Assembly (NCBI GenBank): GCA_040755715.1
Contig: JBFLXN010000067.1
Span: 1-13,387 of the forward strand
Direction of reading: 5' to 3'
Source: JBFLXN01 sp040755715 [NCBI: Candidatus Edwardsbacteria bacterium]
Lineage (GTDB): Bacteria > Edwardsbacteria > AC1 > JBFLXN01
DNA: 13,387 bases
Numbering within the stretch: position 1 is the stretch's first letter; each line of letters opens with the position of its first letter. Both the position numbers and the translations under genes were made by a program. The notes beneath the pieces were generated by a model. It did no database searches. It saw only the letters and a list, made by a program, of their open reading frames with translations, and had not been told where the DNA came from. Shown in pieces: positions 1,772 through 13,286 of this stretch.

Positions 1772-2422
1772 TTAGAAGAGAGCTCGCAGGTTTTGTTCAC
1801 TTTCTTTTCTGGCCACGGCAATTACAGTGTCCCCCGGTAAAATGGTAGAGTCTCCACTCGGGATGATAGCTTCGCTGTGTCTAATGATGGAAATAAGGAG
1901 AGAATCCTTGGGTAGGGTGAGGTCTTTTACTTGACGATTGGCGGCTGGTGAAGATGATTCAATCTCAATCTGAACAATTTCCACATTTCCGCCACGCAAA
2001 GTGAGAAGCGGTGTTAGTGTACCGGCATGGACTTTGTGTCCAATCAAGGCACTGATTAAATTAGTAGTATTCACTGTCATATCTATTCCCACATTGGCGA
2101 AAATTTCTTCATTTTCAGGGTCGTTTATCCGTGCTACTGTGCGCGGTTTTAGAAAGATTAGCTTGGCCATCTGACAGATAACCAAGTTGTCTTCGTCTTC
2201 GCCGGTGACGGCAACCACTAAATCAGCCCGATTAGCTCCAGCATCTTTTAAGAGATTGACTTCAGCTCCATCTCCATAGACCACCTTTTCCCCGAATTCA
2301 GCAGATAACTCTTGGAACCTAACTTTATCTTTTTCTACCAGTAAAACTTCGTGTCCCTCTGCTAGGAGAAGTTTAGTGAGATTATAGCCGACTTTTCCTC
2401 CTCCTATAATGATGATATACAT
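1772..2422 (-). CDS. trkA: TrkA/KtrA-type potassium-channel regulatory subunit (RCK_N + RCK_C)
   Basis: This 216-residue cytoplasmic protein has an N-terminal Rossmann RCK_N domain (about 1-115) that binds NAD(H) or a related ligand, and a C-terminal RCK_C domain (about 138-216). The dinucleotide loop GGGKVG is at 7-12, and E30 at the end of strand 2 fits adenosine-ribose binding. The typical motifs VVYGDGAEVNLLKDAG, ADLVVAVTGEDEDN and ARINDPENEEIF follow. Its length matches KtrA/TrkA single-unit subunits, which gate potassium transporters as rings. ATG at 2422 has Shine-Dalgarno AGAGGA at a spacing of 7 nt. No TrkH/KtrB pore gene is in the window; the only transporter nearby is the APC-family protein at 4849-6432. 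The 16-bp repeat at 2436-2451 abuts its ribosome binding site. Confidence 0.92.
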   Translation of the reverse strand: MYIIIIGGGKVGYNLTKLLLAEGHEVLLVEKDKVRFQELSAEFGEKVVYGDGAEVNLLKDAGANRADLVVAVTGEDEDNLVICQMAKLIFLKPRTVARINDPENEEIFANVGIDMTVNTTNLISALIGHKVHAGTLTPLLTLRGGNVEIVQIEIESSSPAANRQVKDLTLPKDSLLISIIRHSEAIIPSGDSTILPGDTVIAVARKESEQNLRALF

Positions 2423-2435
2423 ATAGTTTTCCTCT

Positions 2436-2451
2436 TAAAAAGTTGCTAAAA
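2436..2451. repeat. 16-bp shared sequence, copy 1
   Basis: TAAAAAGTTGCTAAAA is repeated exactly at 3315-3330. This copy sits between the downstream heptad arm of the S23 element and the ribosome binding site of the RCK gene at 2422. The same placement, next to a heptad array and upstream of an RCK gene, holds for both copies. Confidence 0.75.
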
Positions 2452-2453
2452 TA

Positions 2454-2490
2454 GGCTGAAGGCTTAAGGCTGAAGTTTTGAACGCTGAAG
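2454..2490 (-). repeat. Heptad array, downstream arm of the S23 element
   Basis: Seven-bp units on the plus strand (GGCTGAA at 2454, GGCTTAA at 2461, GGCTGAA at 2468, an 8-bp variant at 2475, CGCTGAA at 2483). The array starts inside the S23 gene and encodes its last residues and its stop codon. It is the inverse of the upstream arm at 2832-2866. Confidence 0.8.
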
Positions 2491-2820
2491 TCCCCACAAT
2501 AACTTACCAGCTTCTACTATTAGACTTCTAATATTTGCCTCATCGTCTTCATTTAAATAATTGAGTTCCTTTGCAAATTCTATGAGATACTCTGTTTCTG
2601 CTAATGAACCAAGTGCTATATCAATAAAATGAGTGAATTCCTTCTTACTTTTGCGATTATAACCTTCAACAATATTTGTTGGTATAGATAAAGCTGACCT
2701 TCTAATCTGAGACCTAAGTCCAAATAGCTCTTGACGAGGAAACTTTTCTGTAACCTTATAAACCGCTATTGCAAGAGCATGAGATTTCTGCCAGGCAAGA
2801 AGATTCTTATAATTTGCCAT
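2464..2820 (-). CDS. S23-type four-helix-bundle protein (23S rRNA intervening-sequence protein family)
   Basis: This 118-residue protein belongs to the small four-helix-bundle family (TIGR02436/PF05635) first seen as ORFs in intervening sequences of Leptospira 23S rRNA and structurally related to Avd of diversity-generating retroelements. Family marks are LLAWQKSHALA (7-17), FPRQELFGL (27-35), SQIRRSALSIPTNIVEGYNRKS (37-58) and GSLAETEYLIEFA (71-83). No enzymatic residues are expected; a nucleic-acid-binding role is the usual suggestion and is unproven. Start ATG at 2820 has Shine-Dalgarno AGGAG 3 nt upstream. The gene separates two RCK genes that would otherwise be neighbours and has inverted heptad arrays on both sides. 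The downstream array encodes its C-terminus (LQRSKLQP) and stop. It is not inside an rRNA gene here. It looks like the cargo of a small mobile repeat unit. Confidence 0.9.
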   Translation of the reverse strand: MANYKNLLAWQKSHALAIAVYKVTEKFPRQELFGLRSQIRRSALSIPTNIVEGYNRKSKKEFTHFIDIALGSLAETEYLIEFAKELNYLNEDDEANIRSLIVEAGKLLWGLQRSKLQP

Positions 2821-2831
2821 TAGCTCCTATT

Positions 2832-2866
2832 CCTTCAGCCTTCAGCCTTTAACCCTAAGCCTTCTT
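2832..2866 (-). repeat. Heptad array, upstream arm of the S23 element
   Basis: Plus-strand units CCTTCAG (2832, 2839), CCTTTAA (2846), CCCTAAG (2853) and CCTTCTT (2860) form a strict 7-bp array that is the reverse complement of the type on the other side of the S23 gene. It overlaps the end of the upstream RCK gene, whose stop codon (2857-2855) lies within a unit. It ends just before the Shine-Dalgarno of the S23 gene. Confidence 0.8.
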
Positions 2867-3256
2867 TCCTACCTCTTTTTCAATTAAACCGCTGATAATA
2901 TCACTGGGGCAGATGGCAATCAATCCTAATTCACGGTAAGCGCCGGCTCTAATGGGGTCATCTACCCGGACGACGATTTTTTTTACCTTGAATTTGTCTC
3001 TGGCTATTTGACCTGCCATAATATTCGTATTATCAGCATTGGTCACAGCAATAAAGGCATCGGCATTTTCTATACCGGCTTTTCTCAAAATATCTTGGTC
3101 AATACCTTTACCAATGACTACAGCACCACTGAATTCACCGAGTAGTCTAAAGGCGTCTTCATTCTGGTCAATGACACTAACTTCGTGTTTTTTGTTTACC
3201 AAAGATTGCGCCAGTTTTGCCCCAGTTCGTCCACAACCTAAGATAATGATGCGCAT
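2855..3256 (-). CDS. TrkA-N (RCK_N-only) NAD-binding protein
   Basis: This is a single Rossmann domain of 133 residues from ATG at 3256. GTG at 3265 would add three codons, but it overlaps the Shine-Dalgarno AGGGAG, which is 8 nt from the ATG, so the ATG is better. The glycine loop GCGRTG is at 7-12, D30 ends strand 2, and VVIGKGIDQDILRKAG, ADAFIAVTNADNTN and VRVDDPIRAG follow the RCK_N pattern. No RCK_C domain follows. RCK_N-only subunits of this size exist next to two-domain subunits in other bacteria (for example Thermotoga), so it may be complete. However, its last codons (GKKA, stop) lie inside the heptad array, so trimming by that element is possible. It probably pairs with the two-domain RCK protein downstream. 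Confidence 0.88.
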   Translation of the reverse strand: MRIIILGCGRTGAKLAQSLVNKKHEVSVIDQNEDAFRLLGEFSGAVVIGKGIDQDILRKAGIENADAFIAVTNADNTNIMAGQIARDKFKVKKIVVRVDDPIRAGAYRELGLIAICPSDIISGLIEKEVGKKA

Positions 3257-3314
3257 ATTATTCACTCCCTATTTTTATACTCAAATCCAGAAAAAGAGCA
3301 TTGGGGTTCTTCTC

Positions 3315-3330
3315 TAAAAAGTTGCTAAAA
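3315..3330. repeat. 16-bp shared sequence, copy 2
   Basis: This is the second exact copy of TAAAAAGTTGCTAAAA (first copy 2436-2451). It directly flanks the solo heptad hairpin at 3333-3409, in the same orientation relative to that repeat as copy 1 is to the S23 element. Confidence 0.75.
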
Positions 3331-3332
3331 GA

Positions 3333-3409
3333 GTTTGTAGCTCATGGCTCATAGTTCATAGCAAAAGAACTACCAACCGTGAACTATAAACTATCAACTA
3401 TGAACTATG
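3333..3409. repeat. Solo heptad hairpin (no gene inside)
   Basis: The left arm has 7-bp units GTTTGTA, GCTCATG, GCTCATA, GTTCATA (from 3333). The right arm has GAACTAT, AAACTAT, CAACTAT, GAACTAT (from 3381). The arms contain a perfect 12-bp inverted match, CATAGTTCATAG (3350-3361) with CTATGAACTATG (3398-3409), around a 36-nt loop. It fills the space between the USP and RCK genes and looks like an empty version of the S23 element. Confidence 0.8.
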
Positions 3410-3414
3410 TTATT

Positions 3415-3990
3415 TTATCCTTCACCCGGACAGCGGTTAACTATTAATTCTACTGGAGAACGGTGAAGCAATTGTTCGGTCGTCTTGCCCATAATCTTAT
3501 CTACTTTACCCGGTTTTCTTGGAGCTAAGGAAACCACAATCAAATCTACATCGTTATCCTTGGCCACTCTAATAATTCCTTCAGCCGCCTGACGGGCTCT
3601 TTCAATATGCGAATAAAATGATAAATTATGCTGTGCTACTATAGCTTCGGCTCGGGTTAGAGCTTCTTTAGCTTTGATTTCTGCTTGAGGTAATGGTGCT
3701 TCTAATGGTAGAGTTAATGGCACTTCAATGACATAGGCCAAAATAAGTTCGGCTTCTTGTTCTTTGCCGAGACGGCAGGCAAGTTCTACGCCTTTTTCCG
3801 AATAGGTAGTTCCTATGGTTGGCACAAGTATTCTCTTCAGTGCTTTGACAGCATATCTTACCTGGGCCACTGTAGCGAGGACAGGCTTTGGTGGGTGAAG
3901 CATCCACCAGAGTAGACCTCCCATTGAAGCGGCAAAAACCAAGGCGAAAAGCACACCCCAAGGACTGATATTAACAGGAACTGGATTCAT
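3415..3990 (-). CDS. Membrane-anchored universal stress protein (UspA-like) domain
   Basis: This 191-residue protein has one N-terminal membrane helix (about 11-30, VLFALVFAASMGGLLWWM) followed by a UspA-fold domain (about 51-186). RILVPTIG (53-60) is the first strand, GVELACRLGKEQEAELILAYVIEV follows, and the C-terminal VDLIVVSLAPRK...SPVELIVNR closes the fold. The ATP motif of UspA (G-2X-G-9X-G[S/T]) is incomplete: the first Gly is missing, and the last element reads MGKTTE. It may therefore sense another ligand or be structural. USP domains are often fused to APC or cation transporters; here a membrane helix seems to do the same job. ATG at 3990 has Shine-Dalgarno GAGG at a spacing of 5 nt, and a perfect 24-bp-arm hairpin begins right next to it. 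Confidence 0.85.
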   Translation of the reverse strand: MNPVPVNISPWGVLFALVFAASMGGLLWWMLHPPKPVLATVAQVRYAVKALKRILVPTIGTTYSEKGVELACRLGKEQEAELILAYVIEVPLTLPLEAPLPQAEIKAKEALTRAEAIVAQHNLSFYSHIERARQAAEGIIRVAKDNDVDLIVVSLAPRKPGKVDKIMGKTTEQLLHRSPVELIVNRCPGEG

Positions 3991-3999
3991 TTATGCCTC

Positions 4000-4050
4000 A
4001 CCTAACCCCCCGTCCCCTTCCCCAGTGGGGAAGGGGACGGGGGGTTAGGT
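4000..4050. repeat. Perfect 24-bp-arm GC-rich palindrome
   Basis: Positions 4000-4023 and 4027-4050 are exact reverse complements around the 3-nt loop AGT. The arms are C/G-rich (CCCCCC, CCCC, CCCC blocks). On the minus-strand mRNA the stem ends at the Shine-Dalgarno of the USP gene. No T-run follows, so it is not an intrinsic terminator for that direction. The perfect match suggests recent insertion or strong selection. Confidence 0.9.
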
Positions 4051-6614: not shown

Positions 6615-9600
6615 TTACCGCAACAATACCATCTTCTTTACCGCCGAAAAATCACCGGCGGTTAGCTGATAGAAATAAACTCCAGAAGCTACTCGTTTTC
6701 CACTCTCATCTCGCCCGTCCCAGCTCACACTATAGACCCCCGGAGTAATGTCAGACAGGAATGTCTGACCTACCAATGTCTGACCTACCAATGTCTTCAC
6801 CAATTGTCCAGCTACATTGTAAATTTTCAAAGTAGTGTGGCTAATAGCAGACAGCAAATAGCGGATAGCGGTTTGCGATGAGAACGGATTCGGATAATTC
6901 TGGTATAATCTGAATGCGGATAGCGGGTAGCGGATAGCGGATAACGGTTCTTCTACCGCTGTATCTGCACTCTTTACCTCAATATCATCAACATACCAAC
7001 CTTCATACTGGTAAGCATCATTATCGCTGAATAGGGTAAAACGAAACTTAGCCTCAGTGCTTCCAAAATAATTAGAGAGGTTATAAGAAGACTTCGTCCA
7101 TCCACCACTGTTGCCAGTAATCAGCCCTAATTGTTTCCAGGTTGTATCAATTCCAATTTCAATAATTCCGTAATCCCAGCCAGCTTCTAAGATATAATAT
7201 TGCCAGAAACTCAAAGTAGAATTCGCTGGCAAAATAATTGATGGTGTAGTTAAGCGAGCAGTGCAATTTGGCGGATAGAGTGAATCTGTGTCATTTCCAC
7301 AGTACCAGCTGTGATTATATGAATGATAGCGACTAGTAGTCAAGTGCCATAAATCCTGCGTTCCAGAGTGTGTCCAGCCAGTAGTATCCTCACAACTATC
7401 ACTAAAACCAGTTTGACCAATAATAAGTCTCAAACTGTCAGTGAAGGAATAACCATCATTTGTTTGAGGATTGAGTGGCAAGATTGCCAGATGCGTAGAG
7501 GGTGAAGTAGGCAATATGTAAACCCTGAATTCACCGTTGCCCACAGAATCAGGCAAGATGTTGCCAAAAGTAGCCGTGGTATCAATCAGAGTCAGATTTG
7601 TGTCACCAGTAGCAAGGCCTACAACTACTCCTTTAGCTAACCCCAGTCCTTTATTCTTAACCTTAACCTTAATCTTGATTGTATCACCTGGTTCAGCAAT
7701 GCCATTATTATTCCCAGCACTATCCTGAATGCTATGTTGATGATAGGCTAAGATAGGCGTGGCTACTACCATAGAAATTGTTCCGTTCCACCAGTTGCTC
7801 AAAGAATCAGTAATCTGAAGATTAAACTGAATCGTATGTGCATTAGCAGTTTGAGAAGAGACAGAAAACTTGTAACTTCCTTGACTTAAGGCAGAATCAC
7901 CGGGTAAAATATCCCCATAGTCCTTTTGATTTTCAAGAATAGTAACTAAAGAATCAGCAGTTACCAGCGTAGCGGTTACCTTAATAGCCGGTTTATTCCC
8001 AGAATTTTTCAAGATAACTGGCATTTGAATGGTCTCACCCGGATTGACCATCCCATCACCATTTCCACCAGCAGTATCATTAATCTCACATCGCCAGTAA
8101 CTTATTTGAGCCAAACTGTCAGTTACAAAAATTTCTCCTTGATGAGGAAGATAATTGTGAGCGGTTACGGTAAGTAGGACTGTGCCGGAAGTAGTGGGAG
8201 AGATTGAAAGATTCACTTCACCGGTGGAAGAAGTGTAATCTTTAGCATAGACTTCAGAACCTTTCATCAGGCAAACCAAAGAATTTTCCAACGGGGTTAG
8301 ACCGTCGTGCACTGTAATTTTGATTTGATTCAAGCCAGGAGTAATCACGGCAGGGTAATCAACCGTCAAACTGCGAGGTGTATCAGTCCAGGCAGGCATT
8401 TCCGGGTCTCCTAAGAGGTTTAGTGAGTATTCAATCCAGCGGAAATCGTTTTCAATTTGTGCCTCAGCTATATAGGGTAGTTTTGAGGCAACAACAACAG
8501 CACTTAGATTAGAAATATCTTCACAAAGGAGTGATTCAAAAAAGCGCTGGTCAAAGAGCTCTGAAGAACCGTAACCAGGAAATCCAGGAATGTAAAAACC
8601 ATAGCGGGAATTTCCTACGAAAGCGGTGCCTCCACCATTTGGATTATTCACAAAATGTTCAGCAATACAATCATAGTCAAAGGCGGCTGGCCAGCAGCCC
8701 AAGGAATAGAGAATAGAAAAGCGAGGGGCATTATGAAGTGTGTCCATATCGTTAGAATTGATGTATCCTGTTCCTGCTTGCATTACTGTCGTGCCAGCAT
8801 GTCCATCATGATTCATCACACCTTGTCCGGTTTGCATTGCCGAAATTACTGTCTGTGGAGTTTCATTTCCATTTGCTTGATATAACTTAGTAATCGGGTC
8901 AAACCGACCAGGCACATAATCTTCATCAATCATATCTTTGGCGATTCCGCTATTACTGCTGGCATCAAGCATTGAGGCAAAGAAAGCCATTTTTAATTCG
9001 TAATCAGTGGGTGGATTTTTTTCATAAGTCAAAATCTTATTGACAAAAGCTTGTGCTTTGGCAATTGCATTAACTGATGCTCTACCAACAAAAAGTTCGG
9101 GATATAAATCCACAGTATCGGTTAGTTCTCCGTAGATTCCATTGTTATTTGCATCCCAGGTGCCATCTAAAGCGGCATAGTAAAGGTCGGTGGGAATGTT
9201 TTCTGTAATGCTTTGAAACTCAATATAGGCGTATCTGGCAGGAATGATATCTGTATCGCCACCTAAAAGGACATAGGTCATTCCCCAGTTAGTATAAGCG
9301 TCTTTGAGAAAATTTCTAATCTTTTCAGCGTTATCAGTGCCGGGATATGCGGTATAAATTGAGTCAGTAGTCACTATTTTTGCCGGAATCCCTTTCTTTT
9401 GTTTCCATTCGGTCAGGCGTTGAAAGACAGTATCATAGCCTGCGGCGGTAATTACAAGATAAGGATAATCAGATGGTAGCACAGGCTTTGGTAGCACAGG
9501 CTTTGGTAGTCCAGGCTTTGGTAGCACAGGCTTCCAGCCTGTGTCTAAAGTAAGTGAGTTTATGTCCTCGGGATTCATAACTAAAGAGGTAAGTATGTCT

Positions 9601-10394: not shown

Positions 10395-13286
10395 AAGTAT
10401 CATCTTTTTTGTCGCTGAGAAATTACTCGTCTCTAAACGATAGAAATAAACGCCATCCGCTACACGCTTCCCGCTTTCATCCTTTCCATCCCAGTTCATA
10501 GAATAGTAACCCGGGGAGCATCTTTCATTTACCAAAGTCTTTACCAATTGTCCAGCTACATTGTAGATTTTCAAAGTAGTGTGGCTAATAGCGGACAGCG
10601 AATAGCGAATAGCGGTTTGTGATGAAAACGGATTCGGATAGTTCTGGAATAGGATGGTTGCTTTTGGAATACCTTTTAGACTCTTGAGGTGATTCAAGAC
10701 GAATTCTTCACTGCCCATTGCCAAAGTGAAGTCTCTCTTAGTTTCCCCAGAACCAAAAGCGAATTCGTATTCGCTATTCTTTCTTAAATCAATAGCCACA
10801 GAAGTTTTCGGGTCAAAGAGATAAATTGCATTGTCCTTAGAAATCTTATCTCCGATATCCCATTGTATTTTTGCCTCTTCATTCCCTTCTACCGTGAATT
10901 TCCACACCTGCCCTTCAGCCGATGGAGGACGGAAATCTGAGGCATATCTATCAGGGAATTCCTTCCAGTCACAATTGTCAAAATATCCTGATATTTCTGT
11001 CAGACCAGAAGGTGGCTCAGGATAGTCATAAGAGTCGTATTCCTGTTTCGCATCCTCTATTATACCGAAGTAGTTGTATTTATCTTCTCCAGCAGGTCCG
11101 CTCACTTTCACATCAACAATCTGATTCATAAATTCTGCAAGATTGTCTGCTTTTCCCTTAGGTGGAGAGCTGAGAGGTGGTATCTTCAGAGAAATAGTTC
11201 CGGTAGATATATTTTTTACCGCATATCCCTTAAATGGTTCTAACCTCTCTATCGGATACTGCCAGGAGTTTCCATCATAAGTATAGAGGCCTCTCAGGTA
11301 GATACTGTCGTTTCCAGTAGCAAGTTTAATCCTGTTCCAATCAACAGAGAAGAAAAACGGGGTGGCTATGTCGTTCCAACCAGGGGCAAGATTTATAGAA
11401 TAGGGAGAACCAGTTCTGATGGTAGTGCCGGAATCTGGGATATCTAAGGTTGGAGAAGGTTGAATGCGATGTCTTAACCACAATGCCCTGCCAGGAGGCT
11501 TAAAGACTACCCTCGCATCTGGAGCTTCTACATATCCTGTAGCGTCATCTACATATCTAAAGCAGCGCCACTTTGTTTTGTCGTAAGAGCCCAAATCGTC
11601 TTCAAAGAAATTGATAGGGTCAGGGTTCGGGGAAAACGAACTCCCAGGGAAAGAGAGGATGTACCAGGCATCGTAAGGATAGAGAGAGGGCATAGCGAGA
11701 CCATAATAATGGACTGGATGAGAATAAGGGAGGGTATCTTTCCCCGAAGGATAATAAGTTATGTTTCCAGCTTTATCCGCTACTTCAAAATAGTATTCAA
11801 GTCCATTTAAGGTGACTTCATTATTGGGAATGTCAACCCAGCCAAGGGAATCCGGCGGAAGAGTCATAAAGTGACAGTTATACCCAGAGCCACTTCCACC
11901 TTTTCTGCAGGATACTGCGGCATAATCTATTCCCGCAGAGCCAACATCCCAAATCTTCGCTTCGCATCGAAATGGGTTGTCTAACTTTGCTATTCTATCA
12001 AGTGTTAAAGGATTGATTTGGGGAAATTGGGTTTCCACTGTGAATTGCCAGGCGGGAGAGTAGACAGACGGATTACCTGCTACATCCTCTGCTCTTACAT
12101 GCCAGAAGTATGTTTGTTCTAAAAGACTCGCTGTTGGAGTGTAGGCCGTGTCGGGCAGGACGATATTTATTTCAGGCGAAGTGAAGTCAGAGTTGTTATC
12201 TATCTGAATTTGATATTTGTTGCCATCAGACACGCTTCCCCAGACAAATGTTGGTGTTCCACAGGTGAATGAACCAGCCGATGGGGAAATTAGGGAAGGT
12301 GTAGCAGGAGGCGCAGTATCCACAGTAAAATTCCAGGCGTTAGAATAAACAGACCAGTTGTTTGCGGCATCGCCAGCCCGAACCCGCCAATACCAGACAC
12401 CATCAGATAGAGAAAGGCCGATTGTATAATTCGTATCAGAAACCACTGTATCCTTCACCGGCGAGGCAAATAGACTGTCACCATCTATTTGAATCTGATA
12501 CTTGCTAGCGCCGGAGGCGTTCCGCCAGTAAAATGAAGGTGTATTGTCGTTAGTGAGTGAACCATTTGGAGGAGAGACAAGTGTTGGTATAGCAGGTGCC
12601 GAAGTATCCACAGTAAAATTCCAGGCGTTAGAATAAACAGACCAGTTGTTTGCAGCATCGCCAGCCCGAACCCGCCAGTAATAAACGCTATCAGTTAGCG
12701 GAGTGCCAATTGTATAATCTGAGACAGAAACAATGGTATCCTTCACAGGTGTAGTAAATGTGCCATCATCGTCTATCTGAATTTGATATTTTGTAGCACC
12801 GGTAACATCAGACCAGTCAAAGAAGGGGGTATTGTCGTTAGTAAGTGAACCATTTGGAGGAGAAAACAAAACCGGTGCTTTCAGTCCCAACCTTATAAGA
12901 TAGACATCATACAAGCCTGCACCAAAAGAGGAGGTATATCCTGCAATGATATATCCACCATCAGAGGTCTGCCGGACAGACTGGCCCCAATCATCGCTAC
13001 TTCCGCCAAAAGTCCTCGTCCATACGGTATCACCTGTAGAATTCGTTTTAATAAGATAGACATCGCCATTGCCCGCACCAAAAGAGAAGGTATATCCTGT
13101 AATGATATATCCGCCATCAGAGGTCTGCTGGACAGACCAGCCCTCATCAGTATCAGTTCCGCCAAAGGTCCTCGTCCATACGGTACCACCTGTAGAATTC
13201 GTCTTAATAAGATAGACATCATAATCGCCCGCACCAAAAGAGTAGGTATATCCTGTTATGATAGTTACTGGTGAAGAATCAAGACT
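10386..13286 (-). CDS. Large secreted repeat protein with Ig-like repeats and C-terminal sorting domain, 5' end broken
   Basis: The frame is open from 13286 to the stop at 10386 (966 codons), with no plausible start upstream of TTG 12914. That TTG lies in the middle of a conserved repeat, so the true N-terminus is missing. Order: at least two and a half 52-residue repeats of the propeller-like type [25 protein letters not shown]...[15 protein letters not shown] (13262 to about 12900); three Ig/FN3-like repeats of about 96 residues starting [13 protein letters not shown] (about 12880-12010); a long region with [10 protein letters not shown] and [14 protein letters not shown], typical of FCB-type extracellular proteins; and a sorting domain (FQNYPNPF to KKMILLR, about 10670-10389). 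A surface or secreted adhesive role is likely; no catalytic residues are seen. It stops matching its own repeat at about 13264. Confidence 0.85.
10584..10625. repeat. Heptad array in the second sorting domain
   Basis: GCTAATA, GCGGACA, GCGAATA, GCGAATA, GCGGTTT, GTGATGA with a 7-bp period from 10584. It encodes [10 protein letters not shown] and corresponds unit by unit to 6840-6881 with a few substitutions. Confidence 0.65.
12030..12880 (-). repeat. Tandem Ig-like domain repeats, 288-bp period
   Basis: Three copies encode domains with [26 protein letters not shown] and WNFTVDT. The stretch starting at 12315 recurs almost unchanged at 12603 over more than 60 bp, exactly 288 bp (96 codons) away, while the third copy has diverged. 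The pair looks like a recent in-frame duplication. Confidence 0.85.
12935..13263 (-). repeat. 52-residue propeller-like repeats, 156-bp period
   Basis: TCAGAGGTCTG at 12961 and 13117, and TATATCCTG followed by AATGATA at 12935, 13091 and (as TTATGATA) 13247, set a 156-bp period. The third copy stops after GATA at 13263, where the next bases should read TATCC but are GTTACTGG. Confidence 0.85.

Follow-up and report, generated by a model that had tools for sequence, protein, structure and literature searches.

The window, that is, the whole stretch of 13,387 nucleotides analyzed here from a contig of Candidatus Edwardsbacteria bacterium, carries a small gene of the S23 family that is bracketed by two arrays of short repeats, called the arms below, and is flanked by two RCK genes. 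The features of this locus and of a second repeat pair nearby are as follows.

1772-2422, minus strand: downstream host gene, TrkA_N and TrkA_C (RCK) protein by profile match.
2437-2878, minus strand: whole S23 element, about 442 bp, with edges set at the outer arm ends from arm pairing.
2437-2475, minus strand: 3′ arm, downstream of S23 (CTTCAGCCTTAAGCCTTCAGCCT...), period 7, containing the S23 stop codon.
2464-2820, minus strand: gene for the S23 (four helix bundle) protein, 118 aa, PF05635 and TIGR02436.
2840-2878, minus strand: 5′ arm (...AAGGCTTAGGGTTAAAGGCTGAAG), on the upstream side of S23, in inverted orientation relative to the 3′ arm, period 7.
2855-3265, minus strand: upstream host gene, TrkA_N (RCK) protein, with its stop codon within the 5′ arm.
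3331-3418, no strand: gene-less inverted pair of 7-bp arrays (TTCATAG / CTATGAA type), between a Usp gene and an RCK gene.

A preliminary description of this DNA had proposed that the S23 gene separates two RCK genes and lies between 7-bp-periodic, mutually inverted arrays. Both statements were borne out. Both neighbors match TrkA_N, and Tandem Repeats Finder reports arrays beside S23 at 2453-2475 (AGGCTGA) and 2832-2864 (CCTTCAG), while the best ungapped arm pairing joins 2437-2475 with 2840-2878 (plus-strand positions). The best identity at lag 7 is 16/21 in the 5′ flank and 15/21 in the 3′ flank, neither of which was equaled in 1000 dinucleotide shuffles, and the inverted match between the two flanks scores 17, a value that was likewise reached by 0/1000 shuffles. 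The period is less regular than the strict one that had been claimed; 15-16 of 21 positions agree, the arrays comprise 3.3 and 4.7 copies according to Tandem Repeats Finder, and the arms are degenerate. The overlap of the arrays with functional ends was found as described: the upstream RCK gene ends inside the 5′ array with its TAG codon (2855-2857), and the C-terminus of S23 (..KLQP) with its stop codon (2464-2466) is inside the 3′ array. The accompanying idea that three units (21 bp) hold the reading frame is arithmetic and not evidence; in-frame use of arms was noted by eye, in single cases only. In two such cases from other genomes (L068 and L069, about 3300-3500), the 3′ arm appears to continue in frame into the beginning of the following gene (a putative ArsA-like ATPase and a putative cobyric acid synthase-like protein), and the arms would therefore become protein N-termini.

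The S23 protein of the window matches PF05635 with an E-value of 1.1e-38 (132.1 bits; cut-off 33.8) and TIGR02436 with 124.8 bits (cut-off 24). Its AlphaFold2 model is a confident four-helix bundle (mean pLDDT 92.1), and Foldseek retrieves with this model 2gsc and 2rld, both of the S23 family, and then Avd (4dwl) and the complexes of diversity-generating retroelements, DGRs (8ub7 and 8ube); the matches ranked under Avd are other helix bundles with E-values above 0.1. The bAvd profile PF22296 also matches (E=9.5e-11), and the score for the Avd equivalog, 41.4 bits, misses the cut-off of 80. Seven residues, Q38, R41, S45, N49, E52, S72, and E75 (counted from M1), are conserved at 93-99% in 161 S23 sequences and sit on helices 2 and 3; these polar residues may form an active site, an interface or the fold core. 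Avd forms pentameric rings. To our knowledge, S23 proteins have no known function in spite of crystal structures and many relatives. S23 itself has been described as a pentameric ring (PMC4990558). Among 26 S23 ortholog pairs from eight fixed loci in related Bacteroidota, dN/dS is 0.00-0.13 in all 23 pairs with a defined value, which come from seven of the loci. These S23 proteins are thus under strong purifying selection and not decaying, and such a low ratio at fixed loci is as compatible with a function for the host as with a mobile element.

The element contains the terminal inverted repeat around an ORF that is a trait of intervening sequences (IVSs) in rRNA. It lies between two TrkA_N genes and not inside an rRNA gene, and Rfam gave no match over the gathering score in the window. 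No ORF of at least 80 aa other than S23 is present between the arms, profile searches gave no match of the S23 protein to a transposase family, no reverse transcriptase was found among the eight window proteins scanned, and the PADLOC models for anti-phage defence matched 0 families.

Away from S23, the window harbors 7-bp arrays of other sequence at 3331-3418, 6840-6953, and 10448-10625. The first is the gene-less pair listed above, whose inverted match of 15 (in 3326-3415) was reached in 0/1000 shuffles, and this pair is a candidate for a non-autonomous relative of the S23 element in the same gene cluster. A 15-base word, AAAAAGTTGCTAAAA, occurs at both 2437-2451 and 3316-3330, one copy adjoining the 3′ arm of S23 and the other the gene-less array that lies on the upstream side of the second RCK gene. 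The arrays at 6840-6953 and 10441-10630 are within the coding sequence of two large proteins, close to their type IX sorting tails, where they encode residues such as AIRYPLS, and the pieces 10441-10490 and 10576-10630 are inverted to each other (match 15). Other repeats in the window are a near-perfect intergenic hairpin of the CCTAACCCCCCGTCCCC type at 4001-4049, REP-like by eye, and two tandem repeats, one of 288 bp (12298-12863) and one of 156 bp (12895-13263), both in long frames that encode repeat proteins.

A scan of GTDB contigs for S23 yielded six relatives. Three of them, two from Nitrospirae (L001 and L002) and one from Acidobacteriota (L003), encode proteins 64-69% identical to the window S23 and have arms of the same GGCTNAA type. 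PF05635 is present in 77/148, 60/96, 45/99, and 75/99 genomes in four phylum samples, which were centred on the genomes of L001, L006, L003, and L005, respectively, and whose group names are inferred from the titles of those records. The flanks were then compared over 177 distinct S23 genes, made up of loci from the family search, the first relatives, 20 stretches around further matches, and the window; weak members of the family are under-sampled in this set because the survey loci are mostly the best-scoring match per genome. Self-identity in these flanks rises at lags of 7, 14, 21, and 28 and is absent about 1 kb away, and a second series at lags of 8 and 16 indicates that elements of period 8 exist. 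Period-7 arrays are found upstream in 91/174 and downstream in 96/172 genes (6/165 and 3/166 in displaced controls), and period-8 arrays in 33/174 and 34/172 (1/165 and 2/166), while each of the remaining periods from 4 to 13 is seen in at most 10/174 flanks.

The preliminary description had suggested examining the flanks of S23 genes in related genomes for periodicity and inversion, and the arrangement proved general. At a match score of at least 14, the flanks are mutually inverted in 138 of the 169 genes for which both flanks are available, against 21/839 swapped pairs and 0/154 displaced pairs; the remaining 31/169 fall below this threshold, and a match in direct orientation reaches it in 30/169. 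By period, the two flanks pair as 7-7 in 64 genes, as 8-8 in 21, and as a mixture in three, 24 have none, and the rest of the 169 are one-sided or called at both periods. The arm match in the 138 armed elements has a median of 33 bp and is 21-48 bp in 119 of them. The 3′ arm starts at a median of 3 bp past the S23 stop codon, and in 56/138 elements it reaches back into the end of the coding sequence; the purine fraction is 0.627 in the 5′ arm and 0.392 in the 3′ arm, against 0.524 in controls. A single universal heptamer was rejected since the unit words differ between elements, although AG shows a modest enrichment, occurring in 90 of 117 unit consensus words where 70.5 are expected (sd 4.7; the count leaves out 21/138 elements in which the period or the unit was unclear).

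The arms vary with the S23 protein, as had been predicted for arrays that belong to it. Shared arm sequence was found in 47/94 pairs of proteins with 60-95% identity, 55/740 with 50-60%, 82/3921 with 40-50%, 54/2640 with 30-40%, and 41/1514 below 30%; arm sequence thus follows the subfamily, being shared in half of the close pairs, some of which may be orthologous loci, versus about 2-3% of pairs below 50%. The set that comprises the window and the Nitrospirae and Acidobacteriota genes has members from different groups and shares its arms, and one exception to the rule is the pair L003 and L065, whose proteins are 73% identical and whose arms have nothing in common. L235, L240, and L241 are related S23 genes that occupy different plasmid sites and have kept arms of the TCAGGAG/TCAGAAT type, and within one genome arm sequences differ among S23 elements. 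Between close orthologs, a compensating change in the arms is clear at 1/8 sites (s2, own-pair score 23.3 vs cross-pair score 12.3); at the remaining sites the arms have hardly diverged, and s4 is without an arm pair. The period also clusters in a phylogeny built from 161 proteins (91 of period 7 and 29 of period 8, with 41 without a clear period left out of the count), on which 17 changes are needed compared with a shuffled mean of 26.3 and 0/500 shuffles are as low, a tree that is weakly resolved with 72/158 inner branches open. A strict one-to-one link between period and protein clade was rejected, given at least 17 period changes on this poorly resolved tree.

Arrays of the same kind are also dispersed in genomes with S23. 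Period-7 arrays that lie away from S23 genes number 88 in the stretches from S23-rich genomes (655 kb) and 7 in those from S23-less genomes (670 kb) (40 stretches per class; S23-less means no PF05635 match, and sequence less than 1 kb from S23 was removed in the S23-rich class). The corresponding numbers are 17 and 8 for period 8, and 38 and 59 for the control periods 5, 6, 9, 10, and 11 in total. The density of period-7 arrays is therefore about 13 times higher in the S23-rich stretches, and that in the S23-less ones is at the level of the control periods. At least one period-7 array is present in 23/40 S23-rich and 7/40 S23-less stretches; the density is uneven across stretches, the counts ignore kinship of the genomes, and the Nitrospirota and Bacteroidota S23-rich stretches came from contigs known to bear S23. 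It had been stated that 7-bp arrays occurring equally often far from S23 genes in genomes lacking S23 would speak against the element; arrays far from S23 do exist, and equal frequency in S23-less genomes was not seen. Chance coincidence of the repeats with the S23 gene was rejected by this density together with the flank controls. With a looser threshold and with arrays near S23 included, the S23-rich stretches contain 115 arrays. An inverted partner lies within 400 bp of 46 of them, compared with a direct one for 22 and a match in a random 800-bp piece for 10, and 69/115 are without an inverted partner within that distance. Arrays far outnumber S23 genes. One 20-kb stretch from a candidate phylum (L285, G181:C1:1-20000) was seen to be crowded with many different 7-bp arrays.

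Mobility was examined with plasmids. Among 40 plasmid records with an S23 match, ten were examined and eight sites were searched, with junctions judged by eye, and S23-free counterparts were found at 8/8 of these cyanobacterial sites. A 5-bp duplication is present at two of the eight (GTAAT and TTCTA); one site is ambiguous and five have none. Site 1, on conjugative plasmids of Nostocales, is filled in Trichormus variabilis 0441 and ATCC 29413 and in Scytonema NIES-4073 and empty in Nostoc linckia NIES-25, Tolypothrix PCC 7601, Aulosira laxa NIES-50, and Nostoc carneum NIES-2107; filled and empty copies are 97.4-97.7% identical, and GTAAT flanks the filled copies on both sides and occurs once in the empty ones. 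The same site contains a remnant of the S23 gene in Nostoc C052 and a gene-less inverted array pair in Brasilonema pBOCT2 (81.6%). Site 2 is filled in Nostoc ATCC 53789 and in C052 pC052_D and empty in C052 pC052_A and C057, with TTCTA on both sides in ATCC 53789 and TTCTA and TTCTG in pC052_D, and the filled copies have one G fewer beyond TTCTA than the empty ones. Site 3, at nrdB/nrdA of Nostoc edaphicum, is empty in Calothrix NIES-4105; the two copies are only 85% identical, and a 4-bp duplication may be present. Site 4 lies between cas10 and cmr3 in Picosynechococcus PCC 7003, where the S23 arm supplies the cas10 stop codon, and is empty in PCC 7002 (90.5%), with a duplication not readable. 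The others are sites 5 and 6 in Aulosira plasmid 2 and Calothrix brevissima NIES-22, each with an empty counterpart, site 7 between cas6 and cas4, filled in Anabaena sp. 90 and empty in Dolichospermum UHCC 0315A, and site 8, filled in Calothrix PCC 7716 and empty in NIES-4105; at these four a short spacer differs between filled and empty copies, and a duplication is not readable.

Replacement was found in Bacteroidota, where at one site G384 has an S23 element with period-7 arms and G400 and G372 have a different S23 element with period-8 arms, the neighboring stretches being 83-93% identical. At another place in this phylum, a gene-less hairpin is fully rewritten inside a stretch of 94.5% identity. 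S23 genes with inverted arms are also carried by four viral contigs (by eye), three of which are near-copies around the gene. Some S23 genes are within type III-B and type I-D CRISPR operons (L238 and L239), and the Pseudanabaena galeata plasmid pPg_01 (L305, 611-1360) has S23 between cas6 and cas4, the slot that is also occupied in Anabaena sp. 90, with very long AAAGCTA/AAAGCCA arrays that are partly in direct orientation. Taken together, the earlier view that the arrays and the S23 gene form one element is strongly supported by the generality of the arrangement, by the inversion, and by the arms varying with the protein, and its designation as a candidate mobile unit holds for the class through the plasmid empty sites and the two 5-bp duplications. 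The S23 element is thus confirmed to be mobile in kind, on plasmid sites rather than on the window's own trkA-trkA locus.

The closest known system is the helix-45 IVS of Coxiella burnetii, which is about 430 nt long, with a 28-bp terminal stem, an S23p ORF on the sense strand, and a heptamer in two to three copies upstream of the ORF that varies between strains (PMC4990558). This IVS is called selfish and was earlier suspected to be mobile; its site is within 23S rRNA, RNase III cuts it, and S23p is seemingly not made (PMC4990558). The elements described here resemble it in having an S23-family ORF inside a terminal inverted repeat, a similar size, and heptamers. They differ in lying between protein genes, also on plasmids and viral contigs, and in that both arms are heptad or octad arrays, whereas the portions of PMC4990558 considered here describe heptamers only upstream of the ORF. 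Insertions in the rRNA of CPR bacteria can contain 23S_rRNA_IVP ORFs (PMC11270868), and 23S rRNA IVP is named in a figure legend of a CRISPR survey (PMC10910872), which may be explained by the S23 genes in CRISPR operons. Avd of DGRs (4dwl and 8ub7) has the four-helix-bundle fold and the pentameric ring in common with S23, but the window protein is below the Avd equivalog cut-off and RVT_1 is absent from 49/77 S23-positive genomes.

Heptameric repeats are over-represented in bacteria (PMC4692102; PMC4679880). Those described from Xanthomonas and Nostoc are partly arranged as inverted pairs, of which two Xanthomonas genomes have 70 and 75 (PMC4692102), and TAACTGA repeats occur in Beggiatoaceae, cyanobacteria, and others, for which the consulted parts of the source report no evident transfer mechanism (PMC4679880). 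Like the S23-associated arrays, these are intergenic 7-bp arrays, partly in inverted pairs, and neither "S23" nor "four helix" appears in the main texts of these two papers. A search of open-access titles and abstract openings, a scope that leaves subscription papers and preprints outside, gave no report that links S23 genes with heptad arrays beyond PMC4990558. Among other repeats, S23 elements may be compared with REP/RAYT systems and MITEs. In these systems, a protein encoded at another locus spreads small units with inverted repeats. The S23 arms differ from them in being tandem arrays of free sequence, and a Y1 transposase is not found in many S23-positive genomes.

We regard the anatomy and the mobility of the S23 element class as very probable. 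The best overall explanation, which is reasonably probable in our judgment, is that the S23 element is a compact mobile unit of about 420-450 bp with one gene between inverted arrays. Counting against it are the 31/169 genes below the inversion threshold and the 30/169 with a direct match, a 5-bp duplication at no more than 2/8 plasmid sites, the surplus of arrays over S23 genes and the 69/115 arrays that have no nearby inverted partner, a compensating arm change that is clear at 1/8 sites, and a selection at fixed loci that agrees equally with a host function. The two arms would pair in the transcript, or in single-stranded DNA, to form a stem whose loop contains the S23 gene, and a functional relevance of this pairing is quite likely. 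RNase III could then remove an element that lies within an operon from the message, as happens with the intervening sequences of rRNA, and complementary arms of free sequence, mostly 21-48 bp, would by analogy suit such a stem. The preliminary description had proposed that the protein binds the array DNA or its RNA hairpin; the chances are even that the arrays are recognized by the S23 protein. Its pentameric ring might read units at a regular spacing, each subunit taking a register of 7-8 nt, and five heptads would span 35 nt, compared with the median arm of 33 bp. Such register reading may have an analogue in TRAP, which is also a ring protein, and a 7- or 8-nt register would suit a pentameric ring with one unit per subunit, but this assignment is, as a specific claim, rather unlikely. 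The complex of S23 and arrays might, with host enzymes, insert new copies between genes, and might move or rewrite gene-less array pairs in trans. S23 together with host enzymes is put first here because the element has no known recombinase, RVT_1 is not associated, and Y1 is often absent, and it is somewhat doubtful that S23 itself is the essential mobility protein. In its widest form, the proposal is that S23 elements are a widespread autonomous mobile class without a known recombinase or reverse transcriptase, in which the five-subunit ring reads the units one per subunit and a polar centre (Q38, R41, S45, N49, E52, S72, and E75) moves its own gene and gene-less arrays, making it the source of heptameric repeats in cyanobacteria, Bacteroidota, candidate phyla, and others; we hold this only tentatively and think it unlikely to be right in full.

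Two alternatives place the mobility function in another protein. As a relative of Avd, S23 might hand the hairpin RNA to a reverse transcriptase encoded elsewhere, for which the fold match to Avd (4dwl) and to the DGR ribonucleoprotein (8ub7/8ube), the bAvd profile match (PF22296, E=9.5e-11), and the stem-loop anatomy argue. RVT_1 (PF00078) is found, however, in 28/77 S23-positive and 23/71 other genomes of the 148-genome sample (Fisher p=0.73, overlap counted by hand), so that 49/77 S23-positive genomes, of unstated completeness, have no match in a search confined to the RVT_1 family, and reverse transcription in trans appears improbable; an RVT_1 enzyme as a required partner was rejected for the lack of association. 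Alternatively, a Y1 (IS200/RAYT-type HUH) transposase could handle the arms in trans, as RAYTs do with REP hairpins. Y1_Tnp (PF01797) is indeed associated with S23, in 66/77 S23-positive genomes vs 42/71 others of the Nitrospirota sample (Fisher p=0.0004) and 35/60 vs 8/36 of the Patescibacteria sample (p=0.0007), in statistics that use overlaps counted by hand and ignore kinship of the genomes. Yet 11/77 and 25/60 S23-positive genomes, including one with 11 S23 matches (G175), have no Y1 match, and Y1 was thus rejected as a required partner. HUH insertion is also expected to leave no target duplication, and the 5-bp duplications at two plasmid sites are unexpected for it. Handling by Y1 in trans therefore also seems a poor prospect.

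In the other two alternatives, mobility is not the point. S23 could belong to a resident host gene or regulatory system, in which a ring-shaped RNA- or DNA-binding protein uses dispersed arrays as control sites and moves only incidentally. This would agree with the dN/dS of 0.00-0.13 in the 23 defined pairs from seven fixed Bacteroidota loci, with dispersed arrays that abound only in the S23-bearing genomes among those sampled, and with arms that supply gene starts and stops (by eye). It is at odds with the empty sites, the element replacement, and the remnant and the gene-less form at one plasmid site, as well as with the difference in arm sequence between elements of one genome, and we consider it unlikely, though not remote. 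Finally, the arms could arise from ordinary slippage and template switching at hairpins and be merely tolerated by S23 genes. Array length does change by whole units between orthologs (site s3), and a gene-less hairpin was rewritten at one site with surroundings 94.5% identical, but a fixed period of 7 or 8 is not expected from slippage alone, arrays are nearly absent from S23-less genomes, and the arms are linked to the protein subfamily, all of which makes this origin very improbable.

The reading of the S23 element as a compact mobile unit ties two puzzles together, the function of S23 and the unexplained heptameric repeats: the arrays lie on both sides of the gene, vary with its protein subfamily, and are almost missing from the sampled genomes without S23. 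Among intervening sequences of the S23 kind, the element represents a novel and general form, and there is a fair chance that it makes up a separate class. S23 elements may explain a puzzling class of bacterial repeats, a link that is drawn here from arrays other than the published ones. If this is true, the S23 genes in CRISPR operons (cas10-cmr3 and cas6-cas4), for which S23-free counterparts exist, would be insertions and not new CRISPR parts, and the two cas-operon insertions suggest hitch-hiking. The intervening sequences of rRNA would then be one landing site of a general mobile element.
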